In this document: positions 17,700-34,387 of the stretch, piece after piece
Layout of the letters: every line of letters starts with the position of its first letter
Position numbering within the stretch: position 1 is the first letter of the stretch
NCBI GenBank assembly: GCA_026396195.1
Contig: JAPLXH010000007.1
Span: 1-35,005 of the forward strand
Direction: 5' to 3'
Source: Candidatus Nealsonbacteria bacterium
GTDB taxonomy: Bacteria; Patescibacteriota; Minisyncoccia; Minisyncoccales; JAGGXC01
Length of the DNA stretch: 35,005 nt
Made by a program: the position numbers and the translations under genes
The notes under the pieces: model-generated
What the model saw: the letters and a program-made list of their open reading frames with translations, nothing else
Database searches by the model: none
What the model was told of the DNA's origin: nothing

Positions 17700-19388
17700 T
17701 TATTTAACAATTCCTTTTTCGCTGCTCATATTGGGGTCATCGGGCAGGGTAGTATCGGTCGAAGAAGCTACAATTCTCAAAGTTTGTCCGGTCCACTGGT
17801 CCTCTCCTGAAAACTCAGCTTTGTTTATTAATAAAGCCGGATTTCCCCTTTGACTGGAATTTGGCGTTAAGGCAATTTGAAAAGTCATATTCGGGGCCGA
17901 GTTTAAAACTCCCCTACCGGGCTCCAAATCCCCGATATCCCAAACAATTTCCCGGGACTGAGAATCAAAAGTAAATTTTTGGGATTGGTCTTCCGGAAAA
18001 ATTTTTCCGGTTAATTCAACGCCTGAGGGCAAAATTGTTCTTATTTTTGCGTTATTTAATTGATCGTAATGATTTTTTACATACCAGGTTACAGTATAAG
18101 TGGTTTGTTGGCCGACTTCGGGCGGCAAGGGCCCGGAATTTCCGAATGCTTCATCAAAAAATAAACCTCTTTGCAAAAATTCTAATTTTGAATTAATTTT
18201 TATCTCAAATTCTTCTCTGGCCTGGGAAAGAATAATTTTATCTTTGACAATCGGGTTTTTATCTTTATCAATGTCGGAAATTGTAAAATCTTTTTTCAAC
18301 TCAACCCAAAACTCAACCCTGCCTTCTTTTTGGGCATCTAAAAATTTAAGGTCGGGATTTTTCTTTGAGTCAAAAATAATTGAATCGTCTCCCAGTGCAT
18401 AATCTCCGGAAGTAGTTTTTATGCTTTCCAGGTCAAACATCTGGCCTTCCAGCTCAACTATCAAAAATAAATTTTCCAATGATTGTTGTCCTAAATTTTG
18501 AAAAAAAATTTCATAATGTAAAAGGTCTCCCGCATTGGCCGTAGACTGGGAAGAGCCGTTAATTTGCTGGGTAATTCTTAAATCCGGCTCTACGATTTCT
18601 ACGCCTTTATATATTTCTTTTAATAAAATAAATTCTCCGTCCTGCCAGCTTCCCAGTTGGGCTTTAAAAATTTTTTGTTCTTTCAGGCCTCCGCTGATAA
18701 CTCCTGCAATTTTTATTCTTCCTTTGTCGCTTTTATTTAAAGAGCCTATGTCCCATTCTTTCTGCTCAAGAGCCTTTGGCTCTGATTTTTTAAATTCAAA
18801 TCCGGCGGGATATTCAATTTTTATACTTAAATTAGAAAGAGGAAAATCAGCGTAAGAAGAATAACTTATAATAAAATTAACATCTTTTCCGGATTTTATC
18901 GTTGAGGGCAAGTCATCAAAAGAAAAAGTTATGGGTACGTTTTTTATTATAGTGGTAAGCGTGGTCTTTGATTCATACTGGGCATTCAAGTTTTTTGGCT
19001 GGTAGCTAAGGCTGGCCTTAGCCTCTTTCGCTTCATTCTCTTTGCCTAAAAGCCGGCATTTAAAATGGATTGTTTTTTCTTCTCCGGGATAAATTGATTC
19101 TCCCAGCTGTTCTTTTCCCATTTCTTGTCTCAAGGATTTCCCTTCTTCTAAAATAGCAAGGGAAGGATATTCAAAAATCAATTTTGGGTTGTCCAAACGG
19201 ATATCATCACTATTATTTTTGTACTTTACCAAATACTCAATTTCTTCTCCAATGCCTGTTTCCGATGGTCCCAAAATTTCCAATTTTAAAATATCTTTTG
19301 AATAAAGATTTTTTGAAGAATACCAATAACCGGCTATTCCCAGGAATATGGCCAAGAATATAATAAAAAAAGTAAACTTTCGCTTCAC
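17700..19388 (-). CDS. Membrane-anchored extracellular protein with DUF11-like repeats
   Basis: The 562-aa protein has one N-terminal hydrophobic segment (about 5-23, after MKRK), so it is either anchored or secreted. Immunoglobulin-like beta modules of the DUF11/CARDB type follow. The repeated phrases are IGEEIEYLVKYKN, SGKDVNFIISYSS, AGDLLHYEIFFQNLGQ and VGQQTTYTVTWYVKN, each opening a module of about 110-130 residues. Family members are surface or stalk proteins. The start is a GTG at 19386-19388 that lies within or against the left inverted repeat of the GIY-YIG cassette, only 4 nt from that gene's stop. No Shine-Dalgarno is obvious. Confidence 0.8.
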   Translation of the reverse strand: MKRKFTFFIIFLAIFLGIAGYWYSSKNLYSKDILKLEILGPSETGIGEEIEYLVKYKNNSDDIRLDNPKLIFEYPSLAILEEGKSLRQEMGKEQLGESIYPGEEKTIHFKCRLLGKENEAKEAKASLSYQPKNLNAQYESKTTLTTIIKNVPITFSFDDLPSTIKSGKDVNFIISYSSYADFPLSNLSIKIEYPAGFEFKKSEPKALEQKEWDIGSLNKSDKGRIKIAGVISGGLKEQKIFKAQLGSWQDGEFILLKEIYKGVEIVEPDLRITQQINGSSQSTANAGDLLHYEIFFQNLGQQSLENLFLIVELEGQMFDLESIKTTSGDYALGDDSIIFDSKKNPDLKFLDAQKEGRVEFWVELKKDFTISDIDKDKNPIVKDKIILSQAREEFEIKINSKLEFLQRGLFFDEAFGNSGPLPPEVGQQTTYTVTWYVKNHYDQLNNAKIRTILPSGVELTGKIFPEDQSQKFTFDSQSREIVWDIGDLEPGRGVLNSAPNMTFQIALTPNSSQRGNPALLINKAEFSGEDQWTGQTLRIVASSTDTTLPDDPNMSSEKGIVK

Positions 19389-27838: not shown

Positions 27839-28144
27839 TTATTTTTTTGTCAAAGAAAGATTCTTTATTATAAAACCTTCTTTTTTTAAAAGCAATATTT
27901 TTTTATTTGTTCCTTTATTATAACCGCCGATTTTCCCGTCAGATTTCACGACTCGGTGACAAGGAATATCAAGTTCTCTGTTTTTATTCAAAATATTACC
28001 AACTGCCCGCCAAGCCCTAGGAAAACCGGCCAGCTCCGCTACTTTTTTATAATTTAAAACTTTGCCTTTGGGAATTTTTCTTACAATATCATAAACTCTT
28101 TTCTGAAAGGAAATTATCGGCTTTTTTAAGAATTTCTTTGGCAT
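27839..28144 (-). CDS. MGMT-family DNA alkyltransferase-like protein (101 aa)
   Basis: This is only the C-terminal DNA-binding and active-site domain of the O6-alkylguanine transferase family: SFQKRVYDIVRKIPKGKVLNYKKVAELAGFPRAWRAVGNILNKN followed by the active-site IPCHRVV (Cys62-His63-Arg64). Cys62 is kept, so it could be a true methyltransferase rather than an alkyltransferase-like (ATL) protein, in which Trp or Ala replaces Cys. The ATG at 28144 overlaps the Nudix gene by 56 nt and has no Shine-Dalgarno. No later canonical start precedes SFQKR, so the real start may differ by a few codons. Confidence 0.88.
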   Translation of the reverse strand: MPKKFLKKPIISFQKRVYDIVRKIPKGKVLNYKKVAELAGFPRAWRAVGNILNKNRELDIPCHRVVKSDGKIGGYNKGTNKKILLLKKEGFIIKNLSLTKK

Positions 28145-28526
28145 TTTTAAAAGAAAGTTGATTTAGGGCCTTTTCATAAGATAACCATTTAAAACCTAAA
28201 TGCTCGAAAGATATTTTTATTTTTTTAGCTTTAGTTTTAACAAGAAAAAAAACAACAATTTTAAAAATGTTTTTTTCTTTAAACTTGAAAAAATATTTAA
28301 TTGTTTCCTTAAAGCCGGGAATAAATTTAATCTCCTTTAGTCCTGTTTCTTCTTCTATTTCCCTTTTAGCTGTTTCTTCCAGCTTTTCCCCTTTTTCAAT
28401 ATGGCCTTTTGGCAAATCCCAATATTCCTTTGGCGCTTTTCCGGAACAAGGATAACGCAATAATAAATATCTAATTTCCTTGTCTTTTGTAAAAATTATT
28501 GCTCCGGCTGATTTTTCTAATAACAT
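28089..28526 (-). CDS. Nudix hydrolase, Ap4A-hydrolase-like (145 aa)
   Basis: It has a perfect Nudix box, G41-x5-E47-x7-R55-E56-I57-x-E59-E60-x-G62-L63, after EYWDLPKGHIEKGE. The preceding YLLLRYP, the W-x-x-P-K-G-H phrase and the tail WLSYEKALNQLSFKNAKEIL match bis(5'-nucleosyl)-tetraphosphatase/MutT-like members, so an asymmetric dinucleotide or oxidised nucleotide is a plausible substrate. Its last 56 nt are shared with the MGMT-like gene in another frame. No Shine-Dalgarno is present; a strong hairpin (28533-28565) lies 6 nt before the ATG. Confidence 0.92.
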   Translation of the reverse strand: MLLEKSAGAIIFTKDKEIRYLLLRYPCSGKAPKEYWDLPKGHIEKGEKLEETAKREIEEETGLKEIKFIPGFKETIKYFFKFKEKNIFKIVVFFLVKTKAKKIKISFEHLGFKWLSYEKALNQLSFKNAKEILKKADNFLSEKSL

Positions 28527-28532
28527 AAACTA

Positions 28533-28569
28533 AACAATAACTCGGTTTGTTAAAGAGTTATTGTTTTTT
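28533..28569 (+). terminator. Hairpin with T-run upstream of the Nudix gene
   Basis: A perfect 11-bp AACAATAACTC/GAGTTATTGTT stem with an 11-nt loop has a clear T6 on the plus strand. On the minus strand it sits 6 nt before the Nudix ATG and may end the adhesin transcript weakly or affect Nudix translation. Confidence 0.55.
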
Positions 28570-28621
28570 AGATGCTAAAAATAAGGTTGATTTTAAAAGG
28601 CTTCGTTAATCAATCTAATCA

Positions 28622-31600
28622 TCAAAGATTTTCTTCAATTCCAAAACTCATAAAAGTAGATGGTGAACTTTGATTACTGTAAGAAGTAGAAATCCAAGCC
28701 GCGCTTCTACCGTTACTGCTAATTCTAACTTCATCAAGAAGTCCGTCAAAATATTCACCGCCGGCATTGCTTCTGCCTATATAAAGAGGGACGGTTGAAT
28801 TATGGGTTATGGGATCAGTTTCGACATGACTTGCAAGAAGTGAACCGTTTAGATAAACACGCATATATTGTTTGTCATACGATGCAACAACATGATACCA
28901 TGTGTTATTTAAAATAGTAGCACTAAAATCATCATATTGATTTAATGCCCCTGCATACATCTGCCAAAGAAAACGATCTGCATATACCAAAAGTGAATAT
29001 CCAGAATAAGGAGACGTTACGATTCCCTTATTAAAAATTCTTTGACCTGTGGTTATCGACGCAGTTTTAAACCATGCTTCCATTGTTATCCCATTCGCCG
29101 GACGTAAAGTAGATGAATCAGAAATGCTTAACCAATTTGAAGCAGCTTTTGAAAAAACAACACCGTATCCGATTTTAGCTGATTGATTGAATGTGCAACC
29201 ATTAGCGCCAGTAACATCATTATTATTGACTGTGGAGTCATCCACTGCGCTGTATGGCGCGCCGTTCATATGTTGAACCATCATAAAGCTACTGTCCCAG
29301 GTATTAATTATTTGTTGCTGATTAGAAACAACAGCGTTTCCATAATACATATATAAATAAGTATCTGCGGTTGAAGAAACATTGATTTTTACCCAAGCTA
29401 TTAATCCACCCGTAGAAGAAGCGTATTTTTCTATCTCATGAGGTACTTTGGTTATTCCGTCTGATAAAGTAAACAAAATGTCATCACCATCATATTGGGC
29501 TTTTGATGATAAATCAGCGCTGATAGTAGAAATTAAAACTGGAAAATCGATTAAATCAGCAGCAACTTTGGTGCGGTCTATGGTTATTTTTTTACGGAAT
29601 AACCAAGGGTCGTACCAGTCACATCCAGTAGTTTTAAATTGAATCTCATTGGTTGCAGTTGACCAGCCAACACTATTGTAAGCTATGCCTCGATAATAAT
29701 AATTAGTACAGCTGGTTAAACCAGTTGTTGAAGAGGAATAACCTCCTGCACCCCAAGTTCCTGTTTGAGTCCAAATGTTTGGATAAGGTCCTCCTAGTGT
29801 TGTTCCCCATCTAAATCCTTTTTGGGTAGTGGAAGCCGTTCCGCTGTCAGTAATAGTAGCGTTAAAGGTAGCCGTGGTATTGCCTATGATTGTGGCATCC
29901 TTGGTTACAACTGTTGGAGTGGCTGACGTAGTACACCCATCAGTAGTAAATTGAATCTGGTTTGTTGCGGTGCCCCAACCGTCACTACTTTTAGCTATGG
30001 CTCGATAATAATAAGAAGTGTCGCAGATTACATTTATTGTAGAAGTATAAGTTCCTGGAGGATAATATGCTGATGTTTCAGTCCAAATATTTGGATAAAC
30101 TCCGGAAGCTGTCCCCCATTTAAAACCTCTTTCTGTAACGTCATTAGGACCAAGAGGCGGAATCGTAAATAAACCACTAAGAATAGCCCAGGTGGCGCCT
30201 TTTGTGGCGGCATTGGTCCAAAGTGCTGGCGGACGACATCCAATAGTTCTAAATGATTTCTCCTCACCAGTGCCCCAACCAACGCTATTGTAGGCTATGG
30301 CTCGATAAAAATATTCAGTACATTTTTTCAAAGTAGCTACTGGAAAATCAAAGGGTCCTTCAGGATAAGAGCTTGTTTCAGTCGAACTGCTTAGATAAAC
30401 TCCGGTGGTTGTTCCCCATTCAAAACCTCTTTTCGTAACATTAGCAGAGCCACGGAAATCAATGTTGCCTTTAAGGGTAGCTGAGTTTTCGCCTATAGGC
30501 GTGGCATCGATAGTTTTAACTATTGGTACGGCTTCTCCATTTATTATTGTTAGAGTGTATGTAACAGGAGCAACAAGCATGCAGTCTCTGGGGTTAGAAA
30601 GAGTAAAAATAACTGTTCTGGCGCCAGGATTAGCGGGATTAGGATGAATTGTTGGTTTAAAAAAATGATTAGGAAAGCCAGGCTTAAAAACAAAATCTTC
30701 ATCAATAGGATCATAATCTACCCTTTCTTCAGCCGTACCGCCAGTACTTTCAATATGTACTCTTTCTGCGCCACCCGCCCCAGGCAAAATATTTAAGTAG
30801 ATTATTGTTAGCGGATCTTCTGCGTCCACAAATCCGGAATCTTCTGAAAAAGAAACGCTGGGAGCGAAAGATCCGTATTCCTGAAATAGAAAATCTGTAG
30901 TAATGCTTTGATTCAAAAAATTTCCAGGAGCTCCTAATGGAGAGGTAAAAAGACTTCCTCCAGAATAAGGGCCGTTTGGTTCAGCATAGTCTGCTTGCCA
31001 ATAACATGGCGCTGAACTATTAGCGTCAGTACACCTAACTACAATTGCATATTTAGTGTTTGGACTTAATAAAACAGGACTCTGCCTAAAAGCTATTGTT
31101 CGAGTGGCATAAGCCAAAGGCAAATCACCGGCTGTTGTGGTTCCGAATATTAAATCAGTACCCGTCGGAAATCCACGTCCATCTACATTTCTAATACTAA
31201 CCTTAAGATCTCCTGAGGGCCTATCAACTCTTTTTAACCACAACCATACACTTTTTATATAATGATTTTCGTTATCTCCCGTTTTACCAACAGTAAAAGT
31301 CTGAGCACCCCAGATATCTCCGTATAAAGCTTTGGATTGTCCACCACTAACAGGTTGTTGTTCATATAATTTCCAGTCATTATCCTCAATTGTAAAAGTA
31401 AAATCATCATCTGGACCAATTTGAGGTTCATGTTCAGCATCAAGATAAGAAGAAGAAGCATTGTAAATGTTTAGGAAAAACGTCTCGTCATTTTCTTGTT
31501 CACTATCGTCTAAAATACTGACGTAAATATATTCTTTTTTAACGTTGGGACCAAAAGTAAGAATACCGTTTCCTTCAAGATTATAGTCGTCACCCTCATC

Positions 31601-32608
31601 AATATATGCTTTACATATGCTCCATCCCGGATGCCCCGGAACCGACTCACATCCTGGGTCTCCAGCCGTACCGCCGGCAATAATTTTATACTGTACAGTA
31701 ATGGTCGCATTCACGCTTTCGGAGAGTACAACTGCAATAGGCACCATGCCAGCCTCTTCTGGCCAGGAATAAGAAGTCGGATCAAAATTTATTTGAGGAT
31801 GACAATTACATGGCTTTCCGCTGCCACAATAATCTGGTATTAATGGCCCTCCTGTCAGTGGACAATATTTTGATGGACTGACAGAACTACATTGTTCGCA
31901 AGGTGTTAAAAAAGTCTGACCTTCAATTGATTCGGAACAGGCGCAAGAACAAGTTGAAGTATCAAAACCAGAACAATCATCCTTGCAAGAAAGGGTTCCT
32001 CCTATAAGAGGCGGAGCTGATTGAAGAAGACAGGTTTCTCCAGCACCAGAACAAGGACCATTACAATCACAAAGTTCAGAGCCTTCTCTAATGCCATTAG
32101 GACAAGCTGGAATAGGGGGCAGAACATAAACTATATCAGAACCGCCTATTCCCCCAGATATTTCATAACAAGGAGAATTTCCGGCGCCTAAACAAAAAAA
32201 GCTTTCAGTTTCCAAATCAGCATGAAGTTTATAACCTGCACCCGAAGAGGTGGATATATATTGATAGGAAAAAAATTTGTTACCAATTATTTTACCAAAA
32301 AGAGGATCTTTTGGTACTTGAGGAAGATAAGGAGCAAGTTTTTCTAGTAAGTCACATCCCGGCTTTAAGTTATCTCCTTCAACTGAGCACCATGCTTCTT
32401 CTCCCGTAGAGGTGGGGTATATGCCTTTATCCATTTTATATAATTGTAAAGCATCCCTTAGAGTATTAATTTCTGCCACTCTCTTTGTGTCTCTGCCTTT
32501 CGCTCTTTCCCCTTGAACCCAAGCAAAAGCAACCCCGCTTATAATTCCTACAACCGCAATAACAACTAAAAGTTCCGGAAGGGTAAAAGCTTTTTTTAAT
32601 TTAAACAT
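28622..32608 (-). CDS. Giant pilin-like multidomain surface protein (1328 aa)
   Basis: The N-terminus is a type IV prepilin/pseudopilin: leader MFKLKKA, cleavage before FTLPELLVVI (Ala instead of Gly at -1, Glu at +5), a hydrophobic helix to about residue 30 and a GspG-like helix with YKMDKGIYPTS. Then come a Cys-rich segment (about 165-272; NGIREGSELCDCNG recalls Cys-rich repeats of surface proteins), a Calx-beta domain (about 272-410), a beta-sandwich (about 415-580), a second Calx-beta-like domain (about 580-690), three Fn3-like repeats (about 695-791, 792-891, 897-996) sharing RGF.WGT..GVY and YYRAIA..S.GW.T, a DUF2341 domain (about 997-1100) and a LamG/concanavalin-like lectin domain to the end. 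A pilus-tip adhesin is inferred. No Shine-Dalgarno is visible; TATAAT lies about 28 nt upstream. Confidence 0.88.
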   Translation of the reverse strand: MFKLKKAFTLPELLVVIAVVGIISGVAFAWVQGERAKGRDTKRVAEINTLRDALQLYKMDKGIYPTSTGEEAWCSVEGDNLKPGCDLLEKLAPYLPQVPKDPLFGKIIGNKFFSYQYISTSSGAGYKLHADLETESFFCLGAGNSPCYEISGGIGGSDIVYVLPPIPACPNGIREGSELCDCNGPCSGAGETCLLQSAPPLIGGTLSCKDDCSGFDTSTCSCACSESIEGQTFLTPCEQCSSVSPSKYCPLTGGPLIPDYCGSGKPCNCHPQINFDPTSYSWPEEAGMVPIAVVLSESVNATITVQYKIIAGGTAGDPGCESVPGHPGWSICKAYIDEGDDYNLEGNGILTFGPNVKKEYIYVSILDDSEQENDETFFLNIYNASSSYLDAEHEPQIGPDDDFTFTIEDNDWKLYEQQPVSGGQSKALYGDIWGAQTFTVGKTGDNENHYIKSVWLWLKRVDRPSGDLKVSIRNVDGRGFPTGTDLIFGTTTAGDLPLAYATRTIAFRQSPVLLSPNTKYAIVVRCTDANSSAPCYWQADYAEPNGPYSGGSLFTSPLGAPGNFLNQSITTDFLFQEYGSFAPSVSFSEDSGFVDAEDPLTIIYLNILPGAGGAERVHIESTGGTAEERVDYDPIDEDFVFKPGFPNHFFKPTIHPNPANPGARTVIFTLSNPRDCMLVAPVTYTLTIINGEAVPIVKTIDATPIGENSATLKGNIDFRGSANVTKRGFEWGTTTGVYLSSSTETSSYPEGPFDFPVATLKKCTEYFYRAIAYNSVGWGTGEEKSFRTIGCRPPALWTNAATKGATWAILSGLFTIPPLGPNDVTERGFKWGTASGVYPNIWTETSAYYPPGTYTSTINVICDTSYYYRAIAKSSDGWGTATNQIQFTTDGCTTSATPTVVTKDATIIGNTTATFNATITDSGTASTTQKGFRWGTTLGGPYPNIWTQTGTWGAGGYSSSTTGLTSCTNYYYRGIAYNSVGWSTATNEIQFKTTGCDWYDPWLFRKKITIDRTKVAADLIDFPVLISTISADLSSKAQYDGDDILFTLSDGITKVPHEIEKYASSTGGLIAWVKINVSSTADTYLYMYYGNAVVSNQQQIINTWDSSFMMVQHMNGAPYSAVDDSTVNNNDVTGANGCTFNQSAKIGYGVVFSKAASNWLSISDSSTLRPANGITMEAWFKTASITTGQRIFNKGIVTSPYSGYSLLVYADRFLWQMYAGALNQYDDFSATILNNTWYHVVASYDKQYMRVYLNGSLLASHVETDPITHNSTVPLYIGRSNAGGEYFDGLLDEVRISSNGRSAAWISTSYSNQSSPSTFMSFGIEENL

Positions 32609-32635
32609 TTTTTATGGTGTTATTTTTATTATTAT

Positions 32636-32641
32636 ATTATA
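32636..32641 (-). promoter_or_regulatory. Possible -10 box of the adhesin gene
   Basis: TATAAT on the minus strand, about 28 nt before the ATG in a very AT-rich spacer of 60 nt. No convincing -35 was found (GCTTTG or TGCTTT at roughly 16-17 nt), so this is tentative. Confidence 0.35.
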
Positions 32642-32668
32642 AAACAAAAAAATAAACAAAGCACCTGT

Positions 32669-34387
32669 TTATAAAGTAAACAAATTTTCCAAAGATTGAG
32701 TATTAATAATATCCTGTTTTTTTGCCCAGCCTCTTCTGGCTTGAAAAATGCCGAATTCCATAAATTTCAATTGGTCTTTGCGGTGAGAATCGGTATTTAT
32801 TGCCAGCTTAACCCCGGCTTCCATTGCTTTTTTTATATTAATATCGTTCAAATCCATTCTTTCCGGACAAGCGTTCACCTCCAAAGCCACTCCAAATTCT
32901 TTGGCTGCCCTTAAAATTTTATCGAAATCCGCCTGATATTCGTCTCTTTTTTTAAGGATTCTCCCTGTAGGATGGGAAATAATTTTAACAAAAGGATTTT
33001 TCATGGCTCTTATAATCCTTTCCGTCATTTTGGCTCTGGGCATTTTTAAAGAAGAATGAACGCCGGCAATTACATAATCTAACTTCGAAAGAGCTTTGTC
33101 TTTAATATCTAAAGACCCGTCGTTTAAAATATTAGTTTCCGCTCCCTGCAAAATTTTAAATTTTAAATTTTCTTTTTTTAATTTACGATTTAATTTTTCT
33201 ATTTCCTTTCTTTGTTTTTCCAATTGTTTCTCGTCCAAGCCCTGCTCTATCCTTAAAAATTTAGTGTGGTCGCTGATCCCCAAATATTCATAACCTTTTT
33301 CAATTGCCGTTCGGGCCATTTCTAAAATTGAATTTTCCCCGCCATCCCAATCAGAGTGGCAATGCAGATCTCCTTTAATATCGCCCAACTCTATTAGCTT
33401 TGGTAACTTCCCCTCCAGAGAAGCTTCAACTTCGCCCCTGTTTTCTCTGAGCTCAGGCTCAATAAATAACATTCCCAATGCCCGATAAATTCCTTCTTCG
33501 CTCCAGCCGGCCACCATTTTTTTCCCCTTAAAAACGCCGTATTCGTTAAGCTTTAATCCTTTATTTATTGCAATTTTTCTGGTGGCAATATTATGCTCTT
33601 TGGAACCTGTAAAATATTGCAAAGCAGAACCGTAGCTTTTTTCAGGAACCGCCCTTAAATCAACATCAAATCCCCCGCTCATTTTAACCGAAGCTTTGGT
33701 AAGGCCTTTGGCCCAAACCTTATCAACACCGGGCAAAGAAACAAAAAAATCCATTACTTTTTTTGGATTTTTCGTAACAACTAAAAAATCGACGTCGCCA
33801 ATTGTTTCTTTTTTCCTTCTCAGGGAACCGGCTTGTGAAATTTTTTTAATTTCCTTTAATGCTTTCAGTTTTTCTTCTATTTCTTTAGCTTTGGGAAAAA
33901 TTTCTCCCAAAAGAAACCGACCCTTGCTTCTTTTCAAAAAAGCGATTCCTTCTAAAATATTTTTTTCACTCTTTTCTCCAAAACTAAAAAGAGAAGCAAT
34001 TTTGTGGCCTTTGGCGGCCCTTTCCAGTTCTTTTAAATTTTTAATTCCCAGTTTTTGATAAAGAACTTTTATTTTTTTAGGACCCACCCCTTCTATCGCC
34101 ATTAACTCATCCAGTTCTACCGGAAGTTTCTTTTTTAATGACTCGTAATATTTTATTTTCCCAGTTTTTAAATATTCTTCCATGCTATCGGCGATATTCT
34201 TTCCGACTCCGGGAATATCTTCCAAGGCTCCTTTCCCTCCTTTTTTATAGATATCTTCAAGGTCTTCTTCCAAACTTTCTATATTTAAAGCCGCTTTTTC
34301 GTAAGCATAAGGTTTGAAAGCCACGTCGTCTATAGCCAAAAAAATAGCTATGTCATAAAGAATTTTAGCAACCTCTTGGTTTTTCAT
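32669..34387 (-). CDS. polX: DNA polymerase/3'-5' exonuclease PolX
   Basis: The 572-aa protein fuses an N-terminal helix-hairpin-helix region (GVGKNIADSMEEYL and AIEGVGPKKIKVLYQKLG) with a family X nucleotidyltransferase domain (metal-binding GDVDFLVV Asp198/Asp200 and Asp243 in VDLRAV) and a C-terminal PHP phosphoesterase domain (DLHCHSDWD at 340-348, GISDHTKF, ISHPTGR, AINTDSH). It should fill short gaps in base-excision repair and trim 3' ends. Length is normal for bacterial PolX. No Shine-Dalgarno. The MFS gene upstream ends 7 nt before its ATG, so they may be cotranscribed. Confidence 0.95.
   Translation of the reverse strand: MKNQEVAKILYDIAIFLAIDDVAFKPYAYEKAALNIESLEEDLEDIYKKGGKGALEDIPGVGKNIADSMEEYLKTGKIKYYESLKKKLPVELDELMAIEGVGPKKIKVLYQKLGIKNLKELERAAKGHKIASLFSFGEKSEKNILEGIAFLKRSKGRFLLGEIFPKAKEIEEKLKALKEIKKISQAGSLRRKKETIGDVDFLVVTKNPKKVMDFFVSLPGVDKVWAKGLTKASVKMSGGFDVDLRAVPEKSYGSALQYFTGSKEHNIATRKIAINKGLKLNEYGVFKGKKMVAGWSEEGIYRALGMLFIEPELRENRGEVEASLEGKLPKLIELGDIKGDLHCHSDWDGGENSILEMARTAIEKGYEYLGISDHTKFLRIEQGLDEKQLEKQRKEIEKLNRKLKKENLKFKILQGAETNILNDGSLDIKDKALSKLDYVIAGVHSSLKMPRAKMTERIIRAMKNPFVKIISHPTGRILKKRDEYQADFDKILRAAKEFGVALEVNACPERMDLNDINIKKAMEAGVKLAINTDSHRKDQLKFMEFGIFQARRGWAKKQDIINTQSLENLFTL

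Follow-up and report, generated by a model that had tools for sequence, protein, structure and literature searches.

Raynaud et al. 2021 defined the modular pilins as a group of over 1,200 proteins in 264 architectures, in which PF13385 is a frequent module; exposure of the modules at the pilus tip was considered likely, and CPR genomes were named among the examples (PMC8179133). PilC of Streptococcus sanguinis carries Ig-like and ConA-like modules, binds glycans and has been modelled at the pilus tip (PMC9934059), and deletion of PilX2 in Nanosynbacter lyticus TM7x lowers host binding (PMC12206443). Makarova et al. described DUF2341 in PilY adhesins and, by analogy to PilY, proposed that archaeal DUF2341 proteins locate at pilus tips (PMC4858521). 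Little is known about partner recognition by uncultivated Patescibacteria; in the only tractable lineage, host binding is aided by a minor pilin whose C-terminal module is large. Although Raynaud et al. list CPR proteins, we found no paper in the open-access literature joining a modular pilin with the candidate phyla radiation, which we take as a weak indication of novelty.

Here we analyse a 1328-aa protein encoded in a stretch of 35,005 nucleotides, which we refer to as the window. The protein shares with the modular pilins a class III signal, an N-terminal pilin module and grafted functional modules; it has about eight modules, whereas the largest multi-domain case in the study of Raynaud et al., from Falkowbacteria, has 860 residues (PMC8179133). 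With S. sanguinis PilC, which has an Ig-like module, it shares the pilin head and a ConA-like/LamG lectin-type module; PilC, however, is smaller, has two extra modules, is encoded in a pil locus and is described without the Cys-rich, Calx-beta and DUF2341 modules that the window protein has (PMC9934059). Like PilX2, it appears to be a minor pilin of the Patescibacteria that has a non-canonical signal and bears a large module at its C-terminus, whereas the tail of PilX2 folds into a beta-propeller of seven blades with RCC1 repeats and its gene lies in a pil locus (PMC12206443). PilY1/PilC tip adhesins and archaeal DUF2341 proteins are large pilus-tip proteins, as we propose for the window protein, but they are not described as pilins and have no fused pilin head (PMC4858521). 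Because its pilin module is fused to domains that are not pilus-specific (Calx-beta, choice-of-anchor R, Fn3, DUF2341 and Laminin_G_3), the protein is, by the sequence definition, best filed as a modular pilin of the kind of S. sanguinis PilC; in its working, it would by analogy be most like the host-binding minor pilin PilX2. The kind itself is thus already known and the size is unusual, while the narrow spread of the head subfamily, its differing tails and the exchange of heads and tails are new here. The exchange between loci emerges from sequence comparison, and the part of the study of Raynaud et al. available to us makes no mention of it (PMC8179133).

Results

A single reading frame encodes a pilin head and a long modular tail

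The gene, its modules and its neighbours are as follows.

28622..32608, minus strand: modular pilin gene; one ORF with an ATG start, 1328 aa
32588..32608, minus strand: class III signal peptide leader MFKLKKA, residues 1-7, cleavage before FTLPE (sequence; N_methyl and IV_pilin_GFxxxE matches)
32111..32608, minus strand: pilin head, residues 1-166, GspG-like (AlphaFold2, NCBIfam, PDB match)
31802..32104, minus strand: Cys-rich segment, residues 169-269, 16 Cys, CPNGIREGSELCD... type (sequence)
31376..31801, minus strand: Calx-beta 1, residues 270-411 (Pfam PF03160, E=1.1e-12 on the isolated segment)
30866..31375, minus strand: choice-of-anchor R, residues 412-581 (NCBIfam NF041539, E=1.9e-9, exceeds cut-off)
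30533..30865, minus strand: Calx-beta 2, residues 582-692 (Pfam PF03160, E=9e-6)
30236..30532, minus strand: Fn3-like repeat 1, residues 693-791, Cys 763/791 (repeat comparison; Fn3-triplet fold match)
29933..30235, minus strand: Fn3-like repeat 2, residues 792-892, Cys 862/892 (repeat comparison; Fn3-triplet fold match)
29621..29932, minus strand: Fn3-like repeat 3, residues 893-996, Cys 967/996 (repeat comparison; Fn3-triplet fold match)
29309..29491, minus strand: DUF2341 core, residues 1040-1100 (Pfam PF10102, E=6.6e-7, above cut-off)
28688..29140, minus strand: LamG/ConA-like lectin, residues 1157-1307 (Laminin_G_3 PF13385, E=2.7e-27, above cut-off)
32669..34387, minus strand: PolX, upstream flank, separate from the adhesin (named by sequence inspection)
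28089..28526, minus strand: Nudix hydrolase-like gene, downstream flank, separate from the adhesin (named by sequence inspection)

The ORF list places the frame on the minus strand, with the position and length given in the initial annotation, which had described a real protein, located it correctly and for the most part read it correctly. The length without stops and the recognisable domains from end to end argue that the frame is not a chance one. An assembly artefact or a fusion of two genes was ruled out, the gene being one frame with evenly low third-codon G+C throughout. A scan for promoters and terminators returned sites no more numerous than in shuffles.

The N-terminus has the features of a class III signal, namely a hydrophilic leader, a small residue (Ala) at -1, Phe at +1, Glu at +5 and a hydrophobic tract of 21 residues (MFKLKKA followed by FTLPELLVVIAVVGIISGVAF). 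The N_methyl match at residues 5-28 exceeds the Pfam cut-off, and the NCBIfam prepilin domain (IV_pilin_GFxxxE) exceeds its own. The Ala at -1 to which the initial annotation drew attention is present but not special, being shared by 4 of the genome's 15 prepilin-type ORFs and by 6 of 11 related heads counted. Residues 7-103 form a GspG-like pilin module (NCBIfam GspG, E=3.2e-11; PDB GspG 5wda, E=4e-6). Membership in GspG, the major pseudopilin of the T2SS, was rejected at 43.4 bits versus an equivalog cut-off of 88.85, and the T2SSG Pfam score of the head is 18.7 versus a cut-off of 21. An AlphaFold2 model of residues 1-411, for which 41 related heads served as input, predicts a lollipop fold over residues 1-166 with a long alpha-1 helix (10-61, 52 residues), a short alpha-2 (87-94) and a small three-stranded sheet (block pLDDT 74-98); confidence is low from about residue 172 on, including the Cys-rich segment and Calx-beta 1. 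A fold search with this mixed-confidence model ranked the ETEC type IVb pilin 9iuf first (probability 1.00 but E=0.05) and further pilins lower, which is supportive of a pilin fold without deciding the matter. Profiles, the PDB sequence match and the confident part of the model together bear out the type IV pilin head originally proposed, and the predicted structure of the N-terminus is pilin-like and does not contradict it.

The tail is largely as the initial annotation had it, with a Cys-rich segment, DUF2341 and a LamG-type domain all present; its list of domains missed the choice-of-anchor R module. Half of the 32 Cys of the protein lie in the Cys-rich segment, and a related head (L081) likewise precedes a Cys-rich block (weak DUF4215 match). 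One of the two proposed Calx-beta modules is a strong match, while the second spans nearly the whole profile (6-116 of 119) yet scores 1 bit under the cut-off. The three repeats described as near-identical and Fn3-like are indeed three, of 99-104 aa each, and resemble Fn3 in fold, but with pairwise identities of 45-47% they are not near-identical; no Fn3 profile recognises any of them, and the assignment comes from the fold match. The Cys pair in each repeat is consistent with one disulphide per repeat. In the AlphaFold model of residues 693-1328 (mean pLDDT 85.1, with low-confidence loops in Fn3-like repeat 2), comparison with the PDB returned Fn3 triplets with E down to 1.9e-10 and low whole-chain TM-scores, the latter because inter-domain angles differ. 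The predicted C-terminus aligns with the arabinanase AbnA over its domain 4 (5hon; TM 0.77 when normalised to the target, rmsd 3.1), in line with the PF13385 match and a ConA-like/LamG superfamily fold; trypanosomal sialidases are also among its fold matches, and in a profile comparison with solved structures the S-layer protein 4qvs, from a bacterium, and AbnA have the closest LamG chains. Pfam and NCBIfam scans of the protein found neither the PilY1 beta-propeller (IPR008707), so that it is not of the PilY1 type, nor, over all 1328 aa, a catalytic domain. The modular tail and the disulphide-rich extracellular layout first suggested for it are thus supported.

The genome encodes pilus machinery and the gene lies outside it

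The 792 kb genome (98.7% complete) is of the Parcubacteria type, in agreement with the CPR origin initially supposed. It holds one PilD with an A24_N domain, four PilB-like ATPases and one PilT-like ATPase. An operon at C4:21.6-30 kb comprises PilM, PilN-like, PilO, PilB, a response regulator, PilT, PilC, a PilA-type pilin and PilD, and two more PilB-PilC-pilin-PilM sets lie at C2:9.6-18 kb and C7:116-126 kb. A prepilin peptidase and complete pilus assembly machinery thus occur in the same genome, and the objection that pilD, pilB and pilC might be missing does not apply. The modular pilin gene lies outside every pil operon, alone between the PolX and Nudix genes. The genome also encodes a small pilin-LamG protein of 311 aa on C11, a 669-aa pilin-headed protein whose tail has no Pfam match (L029:4948-6957; C6:86.9-89.0 kb) and, within a PilB-PilC cluster, a pilin-headed protein with carboxypeptidase-regulatory-like modules (L028:9666-11438; C7:119.7-121.4 kb).

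Four relatives (G058, G002, G001 and G046) place the head in the same chromosomal neighbourhood. The order MFS-PolX-pilin-Nudix in G058 is identical to that in the window; G002 has MFS and PolX ahead of the pilin, where the contig stops; in G001 and G046 the pilin is preceded by MFS but not by PolX, and convergent L20 and IF3 genes follow it in G046, just as they do in the window. PolX directly adjoins Nudix in 13 of 19 head-less relatives examined, indicating that the gene occupies an otherwise empty slot and arguing against a dedicated operon for the modular pilin, none of which was found. Two of the remaining six head-less loci hold unrelated long exported proteins in the slot (DUF3160, 852 aa; Kre9/Ig-like, 1102 aa). 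The interval 28526-32669 and the corresponding loci L132-L151 appear as a recurrent landing place for genes of surface proteins, be they pilin-headed, DUF3160 or Kre9/Ig-like.

A narrowly distributed head carries different tails

A profile built from ten related heads was searched against 247 genomes of the order. It recovered eleven heads at E<1e-50, confined to five genomes (G000, which carries the window, G001, G002, G046 and G058) in three families, the next best match jumping to about 1e-35. Elsewhere in the class, the sampled genomes gave no match better than E=9e-32, and the best were ordinary short pilins. The named relatives are Parcubacteria-type metagenome assemblies. The tails of the close heads are mutually unlike, with cadherin-like/Big_9, NosD right-handed beta-helix, DUF5122 propeller, PKD+LamG, Calx-beta and Fib_succ_major modules and, in G058, unassigned repeats. 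Judged by these comparisons, the head subfamily of five Parcubacterial genomes almost always carries tails that are long and unrelated. A more distant second head type has DUF2341-LamG attached directly, in frames of 491-539 aa (G018, G061, G102 and G116). The order also has other long frames that begin with a pilin head, up to 1118 aa in length, and one of them carries Fibrinogen_C. Directly upstream of a complete head in G001 lies a 141-aa head-like protein (KKTLETI..., L089:2578-3003) without the FTxxE cleavage motif, which may be a head that has decayed or is not processed.

Heads and tails do not share a common history. Two heads from different loci, G002_B and G001_C, are 85% identical, and a Big_9-type domain is all that their tails have in common; at the MurJ-RNaseH locus, the G001_C and G002_C heads are 52% identical, while 78 aa of their tails are 67% identical. 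In the head tree, G002_C joins the PolX-slot heads (100/98) and G001_C joins G002_B (95/92). Moreover, a stretch similar to residues 997-1327 of the window protein (71% identity in protein, and 80% in DNA across 999 bases) ends another exported protein of the same genome, which is 1289 aa long, starts with an ordinary signal/TM segment and is not a pilin. This protein with its DUF2341-LamG end is encoded at L073:5083-8952 (C6:137-141 kb), among neighbours that also look exported. A protein search of the whole genome gave this separate protein as the sole carrier of a close copy of the tail, and shufflon-like silent tail copies were therefore rejected. These alignments indicate that heads and tails have recombined, in a small number of cases. 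The mismatches between heads and tails, together with the tail copy on a non-pilin protein, suggest that the head acts as a carrier and that the tail is its exchangeable cargo.

Discussion

Altogether, we consider it likely that the protein is a large modular minor pilin serving as a glycan-binding tip adhesin, and an adhesin presented on a pilus is the leading reading by analogy to S. sanguinis PilC (PMC9934059) and N. lyticus PilX2 (PMC12206443). In our model, the single PilD-type peptidase of the genome would cut the 7-residue leader, as the signal suggests, and the mature N-terminal helix would dock into a type IV filament like that of an ordinary pilin, as the conserved E5, the hydrophobic tract and the predicted pilin fold imply. 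The bulky tail makes a position at or near the tip most likely. The Cys-rich, Calx-beta, choice-of-anchor R and Fn3 modules would form a stiff, disulphide-stabilised stalk that holds DUF2341-LamG at the far end as a putative binding module, for which a carbohydrate on another cell or surface is the likeliest ligand. Glycan binding, the tip position and host attachment are inferred parts of this model. To judge from its relatives, the head itself is a carrier specific to the lineage; it preserves its identity, and the tail modules differ from one relative to the next.

Several points count against this explanation: no filament can be assigned to a gene outside all pil operons, the pilin helix might act as a membrane anchor and nothing more, LamG domains may be structural instead of sugar-binding, the nearest profile of the head is the major pseudopilin GspG and no known tip pilin, and the model has low confidence in the Cys-rich segment and Calx-beta 1. 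The location of the gene would also suit a surface adhesin whose pilin-type helix stays in the cytoplasmic membrane, without assembly into a filament, while the tail projects through the envelope. The closely similar DUF2341-LamG end on a signal/TM-headed protein of the same genome implies that the tail needs no pilus, and two relatives hold long exported proteins without a pilin head in the PolX-Nudix slot. A membrane anchor, however, has no need of F1, E5, an unbroken hydrophobic tract and a C-terminal beta-sheet, all of which serve processing and assembly, are retained here and are conserved in relatives, and we regard such an anchored adhesin as unlikely.

The GspG profile, together with the several PilB-like ATPases and pil-like clusters of the genome, would fit a T2SS-like system for secretion or DNA uptake in which the protein is a subunit of the pseudopilus and its tail a plug or a receptor for substrates; this is improbable, as the head falls far below the GspG cut-off (43 vs 89 bits) and the tails of relatives consist of unconserved adhesin-type modules unlike a secretion plug. 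The closest LamG structures, AbnA domain 4 and the S-layer protein, would fit LamG and its companion modules as carbohydrate-binding parts that bring a pilus to polysaccharide for scavenging, without host attachment, but the scans of the 1328 aa found no catalytic domain and we give this docking function very little credence.

A head subfamily with exchangeable tails provides a short list of candidate recognition proteins, and it predicts that the head is conserved while the tail varies with the partner. It is tempting to go further and to speculate, with considerable doubt, that a universal-carrier head and tails swapped by recombination, with spare tails kept on non-pilin surface proteins of the same genome and in a few fixed chromosomal slots, make up a host-range cassette system on an episymbiont pilus, in which case these Parcubacteria would change partner or surface specificity through tail replacement. 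Finally, we note that the window encodes a further exported protein, of 562 aa at 17700-19388, with what seem to be repeated surface modules (DUF11-like by eye).
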